A stretch of 49,580 bases of DNA from a virus, in IMG/VR virus record IMGVR_UViG_3300032173_000010, positions 1 to 49,580 of that record; one strand, 5' to 3'. The position numbers were made by a program, and so were the translations under genes. The notes under the pieces were generated by a model that saw only the letters and a list, made by a program, of their open reading frames with translations, did not search any database and was not told the origin of the DNA. Shown in pieces: positions 4,041 to 39,851 of this stretch (positions are counted from its first letter, which is position 1; each line of letters opens with the position of its first letter).

Positions 4041-4592
4041 ATGAGTCGTACACTGCTGGCAACTGGTCACTTCACCTGGGACGCTGTGGAGCGCCGTAGC
4101 GACCGCTACGGCTCTGTTCGTCTTAATGACGACAAAGATAAGGACGTTCTCCTGAACCCGTCCTTAGACGTTCTGGAGGGCAAACAGGGCCGTCTCATCG
4201 CTGAAGTCCTGGTTCCTGTTCGCTCGCAGCACTGCGGCGATCTTGCTCGTGGATTTAAGCCATCCACGCCAGATAAAGGCGAAGTTATTGTCTTGGGCGA
4301 AGGCTCTCTGTTCATCGAACACCGTGGCCGAGCCATTCACGAAAGAGCCGCATATGAGCGGCAGGATGATAAGATGCTCCAAGCATTGGAGCAAGCATTT
4401 GGACGCATGGCTGGCAATAATGTTCGCATCAGCCGATCAGGTCGTGCTGACGAGCGAGCAGAACCAGCCCCGGAAGTTTACGACGTTGTTGGGTTGAAGC
4501 CTGACGATGGACGTGAACGAGACTGGCTTGACCCTCGTACTTTTTATCGGTTGCATCTTTCCAAAATCAACCTGTATTTCGAGGAACTGTAA
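4041..4592 (+). CDS. hypothetical protein, 183 aa
   Basis: Not recognised. 183 residues, soluble and charged, without cysteine clusters or membrane segments. A ribosome-binding site (AAGGAGC) precedes the ATG by 6 bases. The central part has alternating beta strands (RLIAEVLVPV, EVIVLGEGSLFIEHRG), the C-terminal half is more helical. Its last base overlaps the ATG of the next gene, so translation is coupled. Unknown in function. Confidence 0.6.
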   Translation: MSRTLLATGHFTWDAVERRSDRYGSVRLNDDKDKDVLLNPSLDVLEGKQGRLIAEVLVPVRSQHCGDLARGFKPSTPDKGEVIVLGEGSLFIEHRGRAIHERAAYERQDDKMLQALEQAFGRMAGNNVRISRSGRADERAEPAPEVYDVVGLKPDDGRERDWLDPRTFYRLHLSKINLYFEEL

Positions 4593-5023
4593 TGCCATCA
4601 ACATTTGAGCAACCTTTGACGCCGAAAGAGATCGAATCAATCTTAGCTGAGGCTTCAGATGACGCTCAGGTGACGGTGTTTTGCATTGATGGAGTGATCG
4701 TAGAGGTTCCATTCCGTGAGGCCCTAATACGCCTGCCATTCAATGTAATGATGATGCAGCGTGATATGCACAACATCATTACTGCGCAGGGCAAAACAGC
4801 ATTATTCTTATCGCCAATGACTTCCGATATGTTATTGACAGATATTAACAAGGGAGTGCAGCCACTTCCTGATTCTCCGTGGACGGTAGATGCCCTGGAG
4901 ACAAGACAGGTCGGAAAGAAGCTGGAAAACATCAACAAAACTACTGTAAATGCCGTGGCCGTAATGTTTGGTTCCAACCCTGTATTCGGCCCCGATGAAG
5001 ATGGGGTATTGAAAAATGGCTAA
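4592..5023 (+). CDS. hypothetical protein, 143 aa
   Basis: Not recognised. 143 residues, soluble. The start codon overlaps the stop of the preceding gene (TAATG) and the end overlaps the next gene by 8 bases, placing it in a tightly coupled trio (4041-5504). The middle has a methionine-rich stretch (NVMMMQRDMHN) that looks like an amphipathic helix. No catalytic motif is visible. Confidence 0.6.
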   Translation: MPSTFEQPLTPKEIESILAEASDDAQVTVFCIDGVIVEVPFREALIRLPFNVMMMQRDMHNIITAQGKTALFLSPMTSDMLLTDINKGVQPLPDSPWTVDALETRQVGKKLENINKTTVNAVAVMFGSNPVFGPDEDGVLKNG

Positions 5024-5504
5024 CCACGGTTGGACAAAAACTCGAAAGCCAATGAAGCCTGAGCAAATCAAGGCTATGTTGGATGAACTGAACGCTTCTC
5101 TATTCAAGGGAAACCTTCAGATTGAATATCATTTGTCCGCACCGGAAAGTCCTAGTTGGGGACCGCACACTTGGCTTCTGAGCTATCAGTCAGAAGGCCA
5201 AGAATGGGCAACCAGGGTTTGTTGGCTTGAGACTGGCCGTCACTTTGAAATGAGGCATGGCGGTGGCTCACAATTCGCATGGTGGATCGACACGGCGATT
5301 CTCAACGAGGTTGCTGTCAGATTCAATGGCACTATTGGGGACGACGGAATCAGCAACAAGTGGAAAGGCGAACCTAACAAGTTCAATAATTTCACTGACT
5401 ATTTGAATCTGTCGTGGGATCACGTCAAAGACCCAAACACTAAAGCTGAAATACTCAAATTGCAACGTGAGTTTATTCCCAAGGAGTTTCATGATGGTCA
5501 ATAA
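5016..5504 (+). CDS. hypothetical protein, 162 aa
   Basis: Not recognised. 162 residues rich in tryptophan and aromatic residues (SWGPHTWLLSYQ, FAWWID), suggesting a compact beta-rich fold. It overlaps the preceding gene by 8 bases and is the last gene before a hairpin at 5508-5539. No cysteine ligands, signal peptide or membrane segment. Confidence 0.6.
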   Translation: MANHGWTKTRKPMKPEQIKAMLDELNASLFKGNLQIEYHLSAPESPSWGPHTWLLSYQSEGQEWATRVCWLETGRHFEMRHGGGSQFAWWIDTAILNEVAVRFNGTIGDDGISNKWKGEPNKFNNFTDYLNLSWDHVKDPNTKAEILKLQREFIPKEFHDGQ

Positions 5505-6186: not shown

Positions 6187-7839
6187 TCACTTAGGCTTGA
6201 CCAGCGTATATCGCACAACACGCACTTGTCCCGGTTTGACGACCGGCTGAATCATAGTTTCGCCGACCTGAAGCGAACCTTTGGTACGAATGAAGTCAGC
6301 CATTCTGTCTTTGACCAACCGCATGTCTTCACCAGGACAGATCATTTTGAACATATCCCTTAGCGTAAACATATGGCCGTCATCGTTCAGATCGGCCCAT
6401 TTTGTGATGGATGCCAAAATTTCCGTCCCAAGCATTCGATCTGCAATAGATCGAGCCGAATTCCTCGCCGGAATAACGAAATTCAGGGCTGAAATCGGGA
6501 ATTGTTCTTCATTGACCGAATGGCATCGCTCAAGGTCTTCTTCTTTAAGATACGCCGAGAGCATTCTCTCCACTCGTTTATAAAGCAGAGCTACGGCATC
6601 AGCACTTGTTGGAGCGCTTGTCATCGTTTCCTTGAGGTATCTTCGCAAAGAACGCAGAGACGTGGTTCCCGGCTGTCTCGAAATGATCTGTTTCTCGACC
6701 TTTTCTCCATCGGTCAAAAGATAATCATAGGCATATTCCAACTTTTCTTTGCTGATGCCATAAACGTATGCCCTAAGAAACACAGCCTTGACAATGCCCA
6801 TGCCAACTCTGCGTTTTTGTTCTTCCGTGTAGAGAGACAACAATTCATTGAGCCAAGTCAATGGTTCTTGGAAATGGTCAATCATCTTCCTAAGAGTCTT
6901 GAAGCTGAATTGCGTGTTTTCTTGCTTGCCTCGGCTGTAAGCGACCCTCACTACAGTTGCATTTTTGTTGTTGTACAATGATTCGCTGGGGTTATTGCCA
7001 GCCATTGTTTCCGCATCGTCCATAGTTCGACCGACGCCAGTATCAATTACTGGAATTTCTTCATCGGAAACACGACGACGAGTCATAACTCGAATCGGCT
7101 TGCCAGATAACAAGCAGGCCAAAGAGCGATGACAGCCATTTCTGATGCCGTCATGATTGAACATGAACATTGAATCACCGACGTAGTAATTCTTTTGTTC
7201 AATGTCTTGAATAAGGCCGAACACTTTGCCTTCTCGAACTTTGCGATTCGTGGCATTCATCACGATCAACCAAGCGATTTCCGGCGTAATTGTTTCTTCA
7301 GAGTAATCACGAGGATCGCTTTCACTAATTCTTTTGTATTCAGCCAAATCCTTGTCTGTGGGGGTTAGCTTTGGAAAGGACATCCTAATTGATTTTGGAA
7401 TCCAATTAGGAACATTGAAGTTGACTCCTGCGGACGACGACAACAAATCAAGCTGTACCTTTGGTTCACTCATTTTTAGTTCCTTGAAAATGACGCTTGA
7501 ACAAAAACCTGAATCTGTAAGCCATTCAGGTAACTCCACATCAGATAGGCGAAGATACTCAATTCCAAATTTTCGATCAAGCCAATTTTGGCGGATTTCG
7601 ACAATCAGAGAAATTAGCTCTTGGTCCAAGTAAAACCATTCTTTGTGGCTGTTAATGTAATGAAAATATGTTTTAAGGTAATCTTCATCGGACAGCGTTC
7701 CAGGATAAATAGCCAACAAAACCTGCTTTTCATCGGGCGACATGCCGCTTAACGTAAAAATGCGATCAAGCACACCGGCACTATGACCGATTTTGACCTT
7801 TTTAAGCTGTGGCGAATAAAGAAAATAAACATATCCCAT
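6187..7839 (-). CDS. GIY-YIG (T5orf172-like) / ParB-like fusion protein
   Basis: A 550-residue protein. Residues 1-95 look like the T5orf172/MUG113 branch of GIY-YIG nucleases: VYFLYSPQLKKVKIGHS, then a downstream YPG..SDEDYLK and EWF. After a linker, residues 195-275 resemble a ParB/Srx-type domain of phage proteins: GIRNGCHRSLACLLSGKPI followed by DEEIPVIDTGVGRTMDD, comparable to the DGQHRL...FDTIDTG pattern. The C-terminal half is helical and unrecognised. The combination suggests a DNA-binding protein with a nuclease head. The -10-like TATAAT at 7850-7845 lies only 5 bases before the ATG, so the mRNA may lack a leader. Confidence 0.6.
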   Translation of the reverse strand: MGYVYFLYSPQLKKVKIGHSAGVLDRIFTLSGMSPDEKQVLLAIYPGTLSDEDYLKTYFHYINSHKEWFYLDQELISLIVEIRQNWLDRKFGIEYLRLSDVELPEWLTDSGFCSSVIFKELKMSEPKVQLDLLSSSAGVNFNVPNWIPKSIRMSFPKLTPTDKDLAEYKRISESDPRDYSEETITPEIAWLIVMNATNRKVREGKVFGLIQDIEQKNYYVGDSMFMFNHDGIRNGCHRSLACLLSGKPIRVMTRRRVSDEEIPVIDTGVGRTMDDAETMAGNNPSESLYNNKNATVVRVAYSRGKQENTQFSFKTLRKMIDHFQEPLTWLNELLSLYTEEQKRRVGMGIVKAVFLRAYVYGISKEKLEYAYDYLLTDGEKVEKQIISRQPGTTSLRSLRRYLKETMTSAPTSADAVALLYKRVERMLSAYLKEEDLERCHSVNEEQFPISALNFVIPARNSARSIADRMLGTEILASITKWADLNDDGHMFTLRDMFKMICPGEDMRLVKDRMADFIRTKGSLQVGETMIQPVVKPGQVRVVRYTLVKPK

Positions 7840-19682: not shown

Positions 19683-19726
19683 GGGGCATATTGTGCATAA
19701 ACCAGTGCGTTCAATCAAGACAAGAT

Positions 19727-19760
19727 AAAAAAATAGACGACTCGTTAAAGAGTCGTCTAT
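19727..19760 (-). terminator. intrinsic terminator on the - strand
   Basis: ATAGACGACTC (19733-19743) pairs perfectly with 19750-19760 around a 6-base loop. On the - strand it is followed by a run of seven T. It ends transcription of the gene at 19808-20116. Confidence 0.85.
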
Positions 19761-19807
19761 ACAACAAACTTGATACACATAACAATAAATTGACGAGAAG
19801 AGAGAGA

Positions 19808-20116
19808 TTAGCTGGGCGTATCTGGCTTTTCCTGCCCGTCTCCGCTGAGAACTCTTTCCAAAACGTCCCAGACGTTGTATGCTTTGAGCTTCTGGGGTGC
19901 CGTTCCACCTGCCGGAGCGCCGGGCATCCCGCCACCCATCGGTGGTGCGCCCATGCCGCCACCCATCGGTGGCATTCCTCCCATTGGGGGAGCGCCACCC
20001 ATTGGCGGCAAAGCACCAGGACCACCGATTCCACCCCCGCCCGGTGGCGGTGGAGCAGCGGCAGGCGGTGCAGCTTCATGCAGTTTGGTTTCGAGAAATT
20101 TCTTGAAGGTATTCAT
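19808..20116 (-). CDS. Gly/Pro/Met-rich low-complexity protein with capsid-targeting-like N-terminus
   Basis: 102 residues. It starts MNTFKKFLETKLHEAA, close to the T4 capsid-targeting style, with L-H-E/A at 12-15 matching the LxE/A cleavage rule. Residues 16-75 are made of repeats of GGAPPMGG-type units rich in Gly, Pro and Met; the last 30 residues are a short helix (LKAYNVWDVLERVL). It is probably a packaged or structural protein. The region has high GC and imperfect DNA repeats. Its promoter faces away from the synthetase gene at 20205. Confidence 0.55.
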   Translation of the reverse strand: MNTFKKFLETKLHEAAPPAAAPPPPGGGGIGGPGALPPMGGAPPMGGMPPMGGGMGAPPMGGGMPGAPAGGTAPQKLKAYNVWDVLERVLSGDGQEKPDTPS

Positions 20117-26449: not shown

Positions 26450-26944
26450 ATGAAAAAAATATGCGTTTTGTGCAAAAATGAATTTGACGTTCAATTCAAA
26501 TTGGACGAAGTAATCAGCTACCAACCCAAAAGAACAAGATGTTATGATTGCGTGCCTTATGAAGTAAAAAACAAAGACAACAAAAGATTGTGCAAAATAT
26601 GCAAAGAATACAAAGAAAATTCTGAATTCAGCCAAAACAGCAAGTCTGGTTATTTGCATTCATATTGCAAACCTTGCGTGGTTAAAAAATCAAAAGAGCC
26701 TAGAAGAAAATTCAAGCAAAAGTGCATTGAATACAAAGGCGGCAAATGTATTTCATGTGGTTACAATAAGTGTCAAGCGGCATTAGAGTTTCATCACAGA
26801 AATCCCAAAGAAAAAGATTTTTCTTTGAGGGATATTCCCGGTAAAACAGTTTTAACAGACAAAGTGAAGAAAGAATTAGATAAGTGCGATCTTTTGTGTT
26901 CAAATTGTCACAAAGAAAAGCATTTTTTAGGAGAAATAAAGTGA
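26450..26944 (+). CDS. HNH endonuclease directly upstream of EF-Tu
   Basis: 164 residues. Three cysteine pairs ([19 protein letters not shown]) form zinc ribbons in the first half; the HNH core has [25 protein letters not shown] and [12 protein letters not shown]. The ATG has AAGGAG 7 bases upstream. Its stop overlaps the GTG start of EF-Tu (GTGA), so EF-Tu translation may be coupled to it. The 26358-26449 stretch ahead contains a pyrimidine run of TTTTC repeats. Confidence 0.8.
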
Positions 26945-28113
26945 AGAAGGTTCATATCAATGTCGGAACGATTGGTCACATTGACCACGGAAAGACAACT
27001 CTAACCGCTGCAATTCTTGCAGTTCAAGCGGAAAAAGGTTTCGCAAAAAGAAAAGCCTACGGCGATATCGCTAAGGGCGGTACAGTTCGTGACATTACCA
27101 AAACGGTAACGATCACTACGTCGCACGTTGAGTATGAGACGGATACCCGTCACTATGCTCACATCGACTGCCCTGGTCACGCCGACTATGTTAAGAACAT
27201 GATTACCGGGGCCGCTCAAATGGACGGCGCTGTATTGCTCGTCAATGCAGCAGACGGTCCTATGCCTCAGACGAAAGAGCATATTCTGCTCGCTCGTCAG
27301 GTGGGCGTGCCGGATATTGTCGTGTTCCTCAACAAGTGTGATCTGGTTCAGGACAAAGAACTGCTCGAACTGGTCGAGATGGAAACGAGAGACTTGCTGA
27401 CGAAGTATGGCTTCGACGGCGAGAAGACTCCCTTTATCCGTGGGGCTGCAAAGCCTGCTCTGGATAACCCTGCTGATCCCGCAGCAAGCAAGTGCATCGT
27501 AGAACTGCTGGCGGCTCTGGATTCTTACATCCCGGACCCCAGCCGTGCTATTGATCGTCCTTTCTTGATGCCTATCGAGGGTGTTCACAATATCGAAGGT
27601 CGTGGCTGCGTAGTCACGGGCAAGATCGAGCAAGGAACCATCACGGTCGGAACCAAGGTTGAAATCTTGGGCCTGGGCGACATTCTGGAATCAGTTGTCA
27701 CCAGCGTCGAAGCCTTCAACAAGCAACTGGAGTTTGGTGAAGCCGGTCAGAACGTCGGATTGCTGCTGAGAGGCATCAAAGCCGATCAGGTGGAGCGTGG
27801 ACAGGTTGTGGCACAACCACGAAGCATTAAGCCTCATATCAAGTTCAAGAGCGAAATCTACGTCTTGGGCAAGGATGAGGGTGGGCGTCACACCCCGATC
27901 TTCAACGGTTACAAGCCGCAGTTCTTCTTCCGAACCACTAACGTCACCGGCCTTGTACAAATGCCGGAAGGTATTGAGTTGGTCATGCCGGGTGAGAATA
28001 CTTGCCTGTTTATCACCCTGGATAAGCCGATTGCCATCGAAAAGGGCAGTCATTTCGCTATCCGAGAGGGTGGCATGACGGTCGGTTCCGGCGTCGTGAC
28101 GGAATTGCTGTAA
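26941..28113 (+). CDS. tuf: elongation factor Tu
   Basis: A full-length EF-Tu (390 aa; bacterial 393-396) that carries aminoacyl-tRNA to the ribosome with GTP. G motifs: GHIDHGKT (12-19), DCPGH (76-80, with the catalytic His at 80), NKCD (131-134). Domains 2 and 3 are well conserved ([35 protein letters not shown]). Switch I differs: the almost invariant RGITI is KTVTI (54-58), though the Mg-binding Thr57 (E. coli Thr61) is kept. Start GTG at 26941, AGGAG 7 bases upstream, overlapping the HNH stop. The next promoter's -35 overlaps its stop codon. It may replace or outcompete host EF-Tu during infection. Confidence 0.95.
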
Positions 28114-31708: not shown

Positions 31709-32143
31709 ATGAGTACGAAAACTGGATGGACCATTGCCGGGATTTCTGCATTGTGCATTGGCGCAATGACGTGGCACACCTGGAATATTCAGAAGGAGAA
31801 TCAGCGACTCTCGCTGGTGAACTCCATCTATGATGCCGAGCATCGTATTCTCAAGGATGAAATCTCCGAGCTTGCTGGCAAGCCCACCTACGATCAGGGG
31901 TATAAAGCCGCCCTGATTCGCATCGGTGGCCCACAAATCTCCGGTGCGTATCAAGACGGCTGGGACGACGCACTGAAGCTCTGCGGTGCTGAAAACAATT
32001 ATGCAGACGGGTATCACGCCGCCATTCAGCAATTTGGCTATACTAAGACTACAGCAATGGCTCGTTGGCTCGTTCCTGAGCCGAAGGTCGCTGCTGATAA
32101 GACCAACAAGGAAGGCACTGTGCCTGCCAAGTTGGATAAGTGA
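31709..32143 (+). CDS. membrane-anchored hypothetical protein upstream of the GAC RNA
   Basis: 144 residues: one N-terminal hydrophobic helix (WTIAGISALCIGAMTW, residues 7-22), a short coiled coil (KENQRLSLVNSIYDAEHRIL) and a domain with repeats of the type YDQGYKAAL, YQDGWDDAL and YADGYHAAI, three similar units about 25 residues apart. Not recognised. GAAGGAAG precedes the ATG. No terminator separates it from the 23S-like RNA that follows, so the RNA may be processed from its 3' UTR. Confidence 0.6.
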   Translation: MSTKTGWTIAGISALCIGAMTWHTWNIQKENQRLSLVNSIYDAEHRILKDEISELAGKPTYDQGYKAALIRIGGPQISGAYQDGWDDALKLCGAENNYADGYHAAIQQFGYTKTTAMARWLVPEPKVAADKTNKEGTVPAKLDK

Positions 32144-32433
32144 GCCAAACCGCTGTAGGAAGCATTGTGAATACAATGACTACGGTAGATCGAGTGATTT
32201 AGGGGCAGGCAAGTCTTGCCCTTTGGGGAAACAAAGACAGCCAGGATGTTGGCCTAGAAGCAGTCATCATTCAAAGAGTAGGGTATATCCCGACGCAGGG
32301 CCTTCCTGTATGCGGACCCTTTTGGCGTAATAGCACACTGGCCGAGCCAACCCGACACTCGACACCGGCATTGCATTGCTGGTGCCTGGGAGCATATCAC
32401 CGAAGAAGGCTTAGGTGATATGCTCATTTTTTT
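32144..32433 (+). ncRNA. non-coding RNA carrying a 23S rRNA GTPase-associated-centre mimic
   Basis: Bases 32240-32277 and 32325-32342 match E. coli 23S rRNA 1051-1088 and 1091-1108, the 58-nt L11-binding domain, with only five substitutions. GCCAGGATGTTGGC, CTAGAAGCAGTCATCAT and GCGTAATAGCACACTGG are visible; A1067 (32256) and A1095 (32329), the thiostrepton and factor contacts, are kept. The closing helix GCCAG/CTGGC is perfect, with U1108 changed to C so that the G-U pair becomes G-C. A 47-nt insertion (32278-32324) replaces A1089-A1090 in helix 44. Flanking matches (AGACA before, CGAGCC after) extend into helix 42. Around it are hairpins at 32163-32178 and 32363-32384 and a strong terminator. 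Confidence 0.85.
32390..32433 (+). terminator. strong intrinsic terminator of the GAC RNA
   Basis: GAGCATATCACC (32390-32401) pairs perfectly with 32414-32425 and is followed by ATTTTTTTG. Confidence 0.9.
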
Positions 32434-32455: not shown

Positions 32456-32872
32456 ATGAAAACATATGATTCGGTGAACGAAAAAATTCAGACTGATTTA
32501 ACAATACTCTATCACTTTTACCTAAATCAAATCGAAGAAATCATTGCCCTTGGAGCCAATGGCAGACACGTCGATTGTGTTGAGATCATTATAAATGATG
32601 AAGAAGGAAGCGAAAGCTACATAGGAGGGTTTTCACTCCATGAGTTGTTGCCCAAAATAGAAGAATATGACCCTTCAGGGTTAGTCGCAAATAAAATCAA
32701 AAAGACTGACTTTCAACGAAACATATTGATTATTTACTGGCGTCAAAATGATGGCTTGGCTATGGCTGTACATCCAAGGCGTCAAAATGATGGCTTGGAT
32801 GTCGATCCAAGAAAACCAGCCTCAGATGGGCAGCACAAACATCGTGCATTACCGAAAAGAACAGTGAAATGA
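32456..32872 (+). CDS. hypothetical protein with internal repeat, 138 aa
   Basis: 138 residues, acidic N-terminal 90 residues with alternating helices and strands, then two copies of RRQNDGL/WRQNDGL caused by a 21-base direct repeat (32739-32759 and 32778-32798). The repeat-derived C-terminus (HPRRQNDGLDVDPRKP) looks like recent expansion, unlike the rest. Not recognised. AAGAGACG precedes the ATG. The end overlaps the next gene (ATGA). Confidence 0.5.
   Translation: MKTYDSVNEKIQTDLTILYHFYLNQIEEIIALGANGRHVDCVEIIINDEEGSESYIGGFSLHELLPKIEEYDPSGLVANKIKKTDFQRNILIIYWRQNDGLAMAVHPRRQNDGLDVDPRKPASDGQHKHRALPKRTVK
32739..32798 (+). repeat. 21-base direct repeat inside a gene
   Basis: GGCGTCAAAATGATGGCTTG plus one G occurs at 32739-32759 and again at 32778-32798, with ATCCAA after each copy; consistent with a tandem duplication that kept the reading frame. 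Confidence 0.85.
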
Positions 32873-35021: not shown

Positions 35022-35243
35022 ATGGCCGTTGAAACGGATATTACAAAGCGATGGGAACAAGGGATGCCCCATCATCCCAAGAGCATTGCTTTGTTCAAGA
35101 AACTTGCAGAAATAGACTTCAAGTTTGGTGGAGACTACTTCTGTTGGAAGTCAGGTGGTGATGGAGACAACGGCGAACATCTAATGTACGAAATGGACAT
35201 TATGTTCGACACCCAAGATGCCGAAATAGGAGTTGCATTATGA
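35022..35243 (+). CDS. hypothetical protein, 73 aa
   Basis: 73 acidic residues, starting one base after the lipoprotein stop codon and overlapping the synthetase start (ATGA) by 4 bases. KRWEQGMPHHPKSIALFKKL is an amphipathic helix; the rest is short strands. Not recognised, but its position makes it part of the same set. Confidence 0.5.
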   Translation: MAVETDITKRWEQGMPHHPKSIALFKKLAEIDFKFGGDYFCWKSGGDGDNGEHLMYEMDIMFDTQDAEIGVAL

Positions 35244-36385
35244 AACGTCACATAACTGATCTTCGGCCCGACTGGAAAAAGACCGTCGAAGGTCAGGGCA
35301 TGTTGTTTCATACATTCGATGGCGATATTTATTGGGATGAATCGGCATACTACGAATTTGATGCTGCCGAGATAAACGCCATCGAAGCGGCGAGTTACGA
35401 ACTGAATGATCGTTGTCTTGAGGCCGTCCAGCACGTCATCGACAACAATCTCTTCGATGCCTTCTTGATCCCGCCCGAATTCCATCAGTTCATTCGTGAC
35501 AGTTGGGAACACGACGAACACACCATTTATGGTCGGTTCGATTTTTCCTACGACGGAAAAACCCAACCCAAAATGTTGGAATACAACGCCGACACGCCGA
35601 CTGGCCTGATCGAAGCCGCTGTCACCCAATGGTATTGGGCCAAAGATAAATTCCCGACTCGCAACCAGTTCAACTCAATCCACGAACGACTGATTGAAGT
35701 TTGGAAAGAACTGAAGGCTGTCACGCCAGGAGTATTGTACTTCACGGCACTTGCTGGCAATCTCGAAGACTACATGAACGTCAATTATCTCCGTGACACT
35801 GCCATCCAAGCTGGCTGGGAGACGGAATATATTGACATTGAGAATATTGGATGGAACGAAGGTCGCCGCACATTCACCGACCTGAATGAAAACCCCATTC
35901 AAACCTGCTTCAAACTGTATCCGTGGGAATGGATGCAGACTGACGAGTTCGGCAAAAAGCTGTTCCTTAAAACAAGCAAATGGCTTGAGGCTCCTTGGAA
36001 GGCACTCTTGAGCAACAAGGCAATTCTGCCTGTGTTGTGGGAGTTGTTTCCAGATCATCCGAACCTATTGGAAGCATCATTCCAGCCGCTTCGCACTAAG
36101 CCTTACGTTCAGAAGCCTATTCTGAGTCGTGAGGGTGCCAATGTGCAAATATTTGAGCATGGGGAATTGTTGCTCAAAACTGATGGCCCTTATGATGGTC
36201 CGTGTGTATATCAACACCTTTGGGAATTGCCCAATTTTGACGGCAACCACGCCTGCATTGGGAGTTGGATGGTCAATGGCTGGGCATGTGGAATTGGCAT
36301 TCGAGAAGACAAAACCCTTGTGACGGGGAACATGAGTCGATTCGTGCCACACATTTTCGGTGTTCGGCCAAAATACGGAAATTAG
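35240..36385 (+). CDS. glutathionylspermidine-synthase-like ATP-grasp ligase (YjfC/YgiC-like)
   Basis: 381 residues, the length of YjfC/YgiC (about 386), which lack the amidase half of E. coli Gsp. Family blocks: YGRFDFSYDG, KMLEYNADTPTGLIEA, YFTALAGNLEDY, LYPWEWM, WKALLSNKAILPVLWELFP, REGANVQI and the final GNMSRFVPHIF. The fold joins an amine or amino acid to a carboxylate using ATP. In bacteria these genes go with DUF350 and DUF1190 lipoproteins, as here, which suggests modification of a membrane protein or a peptide rather than trypanothione-type metabolism. Substrate unknown. Confidence 0.85.
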   Translation: MKRHITDLRPDWKKTVEGQGMLFHTFDGDIYWDESAYYEFDAAEINAIEAASYELNDRCLEAVQHVIDNNLFDAFLIPPEFHQFIRDSWEHDEHTIYGRFDFSYDGKTQPKMLEYNADTPTGLIEAAVTQWYWAKDKFPTRNQFNSIHERLIEVWKELKAVTPGVLYFTALAGNLEDYMNVNYLRDTAIQAGWETEYIDIENIGWNEGRRTFTDLNENPIQTCFKLYPWEWMQTDEFGKKLFLKTSKWLEAPWKALLSNKAILPVLWELFPDHPNLLEASFQPLRTKPYVQKPILSREGANVQIFEHGELLLKTDGPYDGPCVYQHLWELPNFDGNHACIGSWMVNGWACGIGIREDKTLVTGNMSRFVPHIFGVRPKYGN

Positions 36386-39546: not shown

Positions 39547-39851
39547 GGGGATGCAACAAGGTCGAGTCGTCGCTGTGATTCCTCGCAAGGGGAGATCATA
39601 GAGGAAGTTCTGGACACCACTGCTTTTAAGGTAGGAGCGAAAACCCCGAAAGGGGCGAATAGCGTTTGAACTACCGAGGGTGCAAGCCATACAGACCAAA
39701 ACCTCGTACTCGTACAACGGGTACGAGGTACGCCGGTGAGCAGGGCGTCATCATGGTCGGGTCGGTGCAGTCCGCAAGGACCGGAGGCAACTCCGAGATA
39801 AATGACGACATAGAACAAAATCCAGGCTACGGACGGTTGCATCTCCTTTTT
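39547..39851 (+). ncRNA. rnpB: RNase P RNA
   Basis: About 300 nt with the helices of a bacterial RNase P RNA in order. P1: GGGGATGCAAC (39547-39557) with GTTGCATCTCC (39836-39846), 11 bp, followed by T5. P2: GTCGTC (39566-39571) with GACGAC (39804-39809). P3: CTGTGAT/ATCATAG (39573-39601). Right after it, GAGGAAGTTCTGGACACC matches conserved region I (GAGGAAAGTCCGGGC), and its TTCTGGA pairs with TCCAGG (39821-39826) to make P4, next to AGAAC. The interior has GAGGGTGCAAG (like AGGGTGAAA) and three GNRA-capped hairpins (CCCC GAAA GGGG; GTCC GCAA GGAC; CGGAG GCAA CTCCG). AGATAAATGACGACATAGAAC mirrors E. coli AGATGAATGACTGTC...AGAAC. It would trim tRNA 5' ends. Confidence 0.85.

Follow-up and report, generated by a model that had tools for sequence, protein, structure and literature searches.

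What is a copy of the GTPase-associated centre (GAC) of 23S rRNA doing as a gene of its own in a phage genome? This question is raised by an intergenic, terminator-bounded region of about 290 nt in a 49,580-base viral contig of IMG/VR (in the following, "the window" refers to this whole stretch of DNA at its full length). The first-pass annotation had read the region as a phage RNA that copies the L11-binding domain, with A1067 and A1095 kept, with a G-C pair at 1051-1108 and with a strong terminator outside any rRNA operon, and had proposed an alignment to the Rfam LSU models. All of this is borne out. Direct reading of 1051-1108 (E. coli 23S numbering) places A1067 at 32256 and A1095 at 32329 and finds G-C where E. 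coli has G1051-U1108. The Rfam search (cmscan) yields a match to RF02541 (LSU_rRNA_bacteria) at 32222-32355 (+), which is restricted to model positions 1074-1162 of 2925, i.e. to the GAC. At 32.7-38.5 bits (E 3e-8) the match stays under the gathering score of 50, so that the window RNA is overlooked by routine annotation, and the family as a whole has been overlooked for the same reason. With 38.5 bits at best over so short a part of the model, a full-length LSU rRNA gene is ruled out; the phage RNA comprises about 70 nt of rRNA, not about 2,900, and the Rfam scan found no other rRNA in the 49,580-base record. The gene lies between an upstream ORF that ends at 32143 and a downstream ORF that starts at 32456, and is composed as follows:

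32144-32433 (+), putative ncRNA gene, a GAC-like phage RNA together with its flanking structure and its terminator (intergenic, fold z = -3.9, kept in relatives)
32190-32196 (+), closing helix P1, 5' strand UCGAGUG, pairs with 32356-32362
32203-32221 (+), 5' hairpin P2 (GGGCA...UGCCC), partly conserved, 76.7% of cells paired
32234-32346 (+), covariance-model core (model R1 positions 1-113; 129.6 bits, E 1.7e-28)
32240-32279 (+), counterpart of 23S 1051-1090, comprising the 5' strand of helix 42, helix 43 and the beginning of helix 44, from sequence identity and alignments
32280-32324 (+), 45-nt insert that interrupts helix 44 at 1090/1091, an insertion site common to 54/54 distinct members
32325-32342 (+), counterpart of 23S 1091-1108, comprising apical helix 44 and the 3' strand of helix 42, from sequence identity and alignments
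32356-32362 (+), closing helix P1, 3' strand CACUCGA, pairs with 32190-32196
32390-32433 (+), intrinsic terminator, 12-bp stem GAGCATATCACC/GGTGATATGCTC followed by a U-tract (sequence, fold)

The fold of the 290-nt region is better than that of all 200 shuffled versions, and the terminator is missing from the list of a consensus scan that permits loops of up to 8 nt. The closing helix, the 5' hairpin, the existence of a conserved family and its presence in cultivated phages go beyond the first-pass annotation.

This family emerged from loci retrieved via the window EF-Tu and the ORF upstream of the RNA, among which six further contigs (98-533 kb) turned out to carry the RNA as well. Pattern scans with CCAGGATGTTGGCNYAGNNGYAG, TTNGGYGTANNANCNCACTGG, AGYCATCNTTNAAAGAGTGA and CTTTGGYGTARYARCACAC widened it; among the matches listed for CTTTGGYGTARYARCACAC, 61 of 64 new loci were recognised as members from model R2 or the 5' motif. 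By our tally a GAC-like RNA is present in at least about 130 IMG/VR contigs, the largest of them 533 kb long. A BLAST search of a phage collection added about 20 cultivated phages, with no RNA feature annotated over any copy. These carriers are phages of Serratia and Erwinia (BF, six pEa_SNUABM phages, Kaldavass), of Xanthomonas, Cronobacter, Pectobacterium and Aeromonas (XbC2, XaC1, XacN1; GAP32; CBB; 4_4572), of Pseudomonas (pf16, UNO-G1W1, Milchi, Astolliot) and of Acinetobacter (ME3), while Vibrio phage 2.275.O has a divergent copy. No match to model R2 was obtained in T4, PAK_P3, 121Q, RaK2, phiKZ, Bacillus phage G or T5, and contigs that have an EF-Tu relative without the RNA (e.g. L005, L037) gave no hit either. 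A broad pattern search of 84,980 prokaryote species genomes returned 61 matches and no convincing member, the best (18.8 bits) being situated at a contig end. In two phages, two GAC-like RNAs lie next to each other (L292 at 4025 and 4276, L247 at 3991 and 4860, all on the minus strand), and the tandem copies of L292 differ at 1092-1099, where one has U.UA and the other C-G.

The concern, voiced in the first-pass annotation, that the segment might belong to a misassembled bacterial rRNA gene or be absent from related phages has thus been removed on both counts, as many other phage contigs have homologous RNAs whose insert occupies the same site. Contaminating or misassembled bacterial 23S rRNA is refuted and retains practically no credibility: the same insert, flanks and synteny recur in independent assemblies and in complete genomes of cultivated phages. 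Nothing specific speaks for it; these collections do contain true 23S genes and fragments (L055/L059, L061, Pd_22F), but they are devoid of the insert.

All members share one architecture, in which a helix 42 equivalent is followed by helix 43, the 1082-1090 strand, an inserted arm and the apical part of helix 44. The helix 42 equivalent is free in sequence, with perfect or near-perfect complementarity; counted outward from 1055/1104 it averages 6.35 bp, versus 2.51 bp when flanks are swapped between members. The arm between 1090 and 1091 is present in 54/54 distinct sequences and ranges from 29 to 274 nt. It opens with a covarying helix and is followed by a conserved UUUG linker; in the window these are AGGGU (32280-32284), paired with ACCCU (32316-32320), and UUUG (32321-32324). 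Two insert types recur in seven sequences each, type A with CACCCCGNA...GGUAAGG and type B with AGGGGAAG...GACCCUUAGAG. One recurrent insert domain is found in L054, L189-L191, L195, L199 and L202 and another in L146, L157, L161, L168, L192, L193 and L198, each common to phages of different hosts. Some copies, such as those of L002, L030, L243, L277 and L280, possess a further insert in helix 43. The flanks that form P1 vary in sequence while their pairing is kept (UCGAGUG/CACUCGA in the window, UUAGGC/GCCUAA in L006, UUGGGUU/AACCCAA in L030), and across six relatives both sides have changed at four of its seven pairs.

The alignment of 52 sequences bears the marks of selection on this structure. 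Of its cells, 96.3% are paired, whereas the shuffles reach 75.6% and the slid controls 30-59%; double-changed cells number 237, as against 78.7 in shuffles; and the covariation score is 0.565, as against 0.162 in shuffles and at most 0.134 in slides. The pair 1058-1080 is U-A in 24, G-C in 16 and A-U in 14 of the 54 sequences, with no exceptions. The GAC tertiary base triple 1072.(1092-1099), known from the work of Conn, Gutell and Draper, is C.CG in 41, U.UA in 10, U.UG in two and C.UA in one. In an independent set, drawn from the matches listed for the CTTTGGYGTARYARCACAC scan, 23 members have C.CG and eight U.UA, and the single odd triple is a mis-join in L292, where the 5' half of one tandem copy was combined with the 3' half of its neighbour. 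The triple is U.UA in Acinetobacter phage ME3 but C.CG in the 23S gene of a record named Acinetobacter; it has therefore co-varied in the phage lineage of the RNA and is no simple copy of a host sequence.

Ten nucleotides are invariant in 54/54 sequences (U1060, A1088, A1077, A1084, A1085, G1087, G1071, A1073, G1093, U1094), and a phage-specific change, A1101 instead of the U of 23S, is found in 51/54. By contrast, positions that face translation factors drift: A1067 is replaced by G in 8/54 and position 1068 is A in 13/54, although these loops are still mostly conserved (A1067 in 85%, A1095 in 94%). In 12 bacterial 23S genes, a small sample obtained with a search pattern that fixed 1095-1096, A1067, G1068, A1095 and A1096 are constant. 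Since the fold-building bases are invariant while A1067 drifts, the fold is kept more strictly than the factor-facing bases; the first-pass annotation had laid the emphasis on A1067 and A1095. Judged from these alignments, the phage RNA almost certainly adopts the GAC fold, and the pattern of selection points to this fold and the L11 site rather than to the factor-binding loops.

Comparison with known RNAs helps to delimit the class. With the GAC of 23S rRNA, or its 58-nt L11-binding domain (part of RF02541), the phage RNA shares helices 42-44 in their order, the loop nucleotides, U1060/A1088 and the triple; unlike it, the phage RNA is a free-standing gene with a free helix 42 sequence, has A1101 in place of U, and in 54/54 members has a helix 44 that is interrupted by the 29-274-nt arm. 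Leaders of ribosomal protein operons, such as the L10 leader and the L1 operon leader, likewise mimic an rRNA protein site, but the phage RNA is viral, is not located upstream of a ribosomal protein gene, possesses its own terminator and, by its position, would act in trans. With its own terminator, and with no L11 gene in 65 record searches (0/16 and 0/49), both a ribosomal protein leader and cis-regulation of a phage L11 are ruled out. Stable ncRNA genes within phage tRNA clusters are exemplified by RNAs C and D of T4 (rnaC/rnaD), which lack the GAC motif and are undetected by models R1 or R2. Similarly, PAK_P3 has sRNA2, an abundant small RNA of late infection whose gene is placed between two tRNA genes (PMC4933390); this ncRNA of a phage tRNA cluster belongs to a genome without an R2 match. 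Translation parts of phages (EF-Tu, L7/L12, S21, tRNAs, tmRNA; PMC7162821) are also aimed at host translation, L7/L12 even stemming from the same ribosomal region, but they are proteins, tRNAs or tmRNA, and the main text of that paper mentions no rRNA domain. Apart from LSU rRNA, no family of Rfam 15 (introns and tmRNA included) matches over the RNA at gathering score or at E<0.01. The first-pass annotation knew of no described phage RNA of this kind, and we found none in the searchable literature, work on huge phages and on the discovery of structured RNAs included; bioRxiv and most subscription papers were outside the reach of that search.

The genomic setting of the RNA is frequently that of a tRNA array. 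A tRNA gene on the same strand lies within 150 nt of 28/54 members and within 300 nt of 33/54, in several cases at less than 10 nt; at nine loci no tRNA is close by, and 5.9 kb separate the window copy from the nearest tRNA found. Phage EF-Tu had been suggested as a partner of the RNA, but its domain 3 was found in 0/38 records of other carriers, and the EF-Tu gene near the window copy (26884-28113, +) is therefore not part of the system. Relatives of this gene (about 55-97% identity) occur in about 30 viral contigs, some of which are probably bacterial or prophage. L7/L12 is encoded by 7/42 carriers, which could indicate a stalk-related role; given so few carriers, a partnership between the RNA and L7/L12 was rejected. 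Homologues were noted in L044 (1243-1710; 155 aa, with both domains), G024, G039, G047 and UNO-G1W1.

Comparative sequence analysis establishes, then, an RNA gene with the GAC secondary structure and tertiary triple, its wide occurrence in large phages, its frequent tRNA-array position and, in the records searched, no phage L11. It describes an undescribed, widespread class of phage RNA, often among tRNA genes, that is probably a ribosome decoy. A GAC fragment of 58 nt folds by itself, and its tertiary structure is stabilised by the L11 that it binds (PMC10161774); we lean slightly towards the view that the phage RNA binds host L11 in vivo. Whether transcribed along with the phage tRNAs or as a unit of its own, it would capture free or exchanging host L11 via the helix 43/44 fold. 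This fold is the feature of rRNA that L11 recognises; RelA activation depends on L11, which exchanges on ribosomes and is not essential for growth, L11-null (relC) bacteria being viable and relaxed. A decoy could consequently yield a relaxed host at little cost, along the lines of the L11 titration and RelA block that the first-pass annotation had put forward. With less certainty, the loss of L11 from ribosomes may lead to a relaxed (RelA-inactive) host and/or to a traffic of translation factors that favours phage synthesis, while the variable helix 44 arm probably has a second, phage-specific function in partner docking or stability. That a free-standing phage ncRNA with the GAC fold acts in trans as a decoy for host L11 is a serious candidate, to which we grant a little less than an even chance. 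Somewhat more tentative is the general form of the idea, in which the class takes L11 (or another GAC-binding protein) from host ribosomes, so that starvation signalling is switched off and translation retuned by an RNA and not by a protein; an anti-stringent outcome of the decoy is rather doubtful. Several points speak against an L11 decoy: the insert enters helix 44 at 1090/1091, near the L11 site; the stripping of ribosomes would need a very abundant RNA; the L7/L12 genes of 7/42 carriers could point to the stalk; and the mostly conserved factor-facing loops leave room for a ligand that reads them too.

Such a ligand could be RelA/Rel with deacyl-tRNA, a translational GTPase, or a defence or toxin protein, which the RNA would keep off ribosomes or for which it would serve as a sacrificial target. 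The entire GAC fold is retained with both loops largely conserved, and the carriers infect many hosts and have tRNA arrays that are often read as counter-defence. We nevertheless regard this reading as fairly improbable, as A1067 and G1068 drift where the fold does not, and stable GTPase binding also requires the sarcin-ricin loop, of which the inserts contain nothing beyond a 7-nt chance match; we know of no defence protein that targets the GAC. Less likely again is an RNA of the tRNA array that contacts the tRNA elbow, like the ribosomal GAC, and chaperones, processes or stores phage tRNAs. The 28 members within 150 nt of a same-strand tRNA, several almost adjoining it, and the RNase P-like RNA of the window phages (see below) would suit this role, yet A1067, the elbow-stacking base, varies, GAC-elbow contacts are weak off the ribosome, and neither the nine loci without nearby tRNA nor the window copy fits.

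A role in ribosome assembly, with the RNA as a competitor for L11/L10/L7-L12 while 50S subunits are being built, or as a component that enters the particle in trans and so gives modified ribosomes, appears slightly less likely still: the GAC fold and the L7/L12 of some carriers are in its favour, but most carriers lack L7/L12, and because arbitrary helices replace helix 42, the usual L10 site and the continuity with rRNA are lost. Finally, the insert could be a mobile or splicing element with the GAC as exonic context, or the whole a functionless relic of rRNA capture. Apart from the rRNA homology, the boundaries recall those of group I introns, as the insert follows U1090 and a G precedes the 3' exon; with inserts down to 29 nt and no group I/II or other Rfam match, a group I intron, the core of which is missing from the insert, is disfavoured, and the strong covariation together with phage-specific changes such as A1101 indicates long selection in phages. 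We consider either version very improbable. Of all these readings, a free-standing GAC decoy for host L11 is the preferred one.

To our knowledge this family would be without precedent: a folded part of the ribosome, encoded by a virus in a gene of its own. If the decoy is true, large phages would silence ribosome-coupled starvation signalling through RNA mimicry and not through a protein. With this family, the study of host-ribosome signalling in large phages becomes a simple question of binding and deletion, in phages that are already cultured. Moreover, the many variants amount to a mutational survey, made by nature, of a fold that ranks among the most thoroughly studied RNA tertiary structures.

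Other features were noted in the same genomes. The window contains an RNase P class A-like RNA at 39552-39845 (+; 41 bits, E 1.6e-9), and L035 has one at 19691-19963 (53.7 bits, E 7e-14; gathering score 100 in both cases); the two are a probable phage-encoded RNase P RNA that is conserved in a relative. A gene for glutathionylspermidine synthase lies near the GAC-like RNA both in the window (35240-36385) and in Aeromonas phage 4_4572 (73-75 kb), which may be coincidence. Near its GAC-like RNA, L140 has a YrlA Y-RNA-like match at 6290-6382 (-; 38.9 bits, gathering score 69). RNA-bearing phage contigs also encode tmRNA and permuted tmRNA, at 4045-4349 (-) in L065 and at 4894-5112 (+) in L075.
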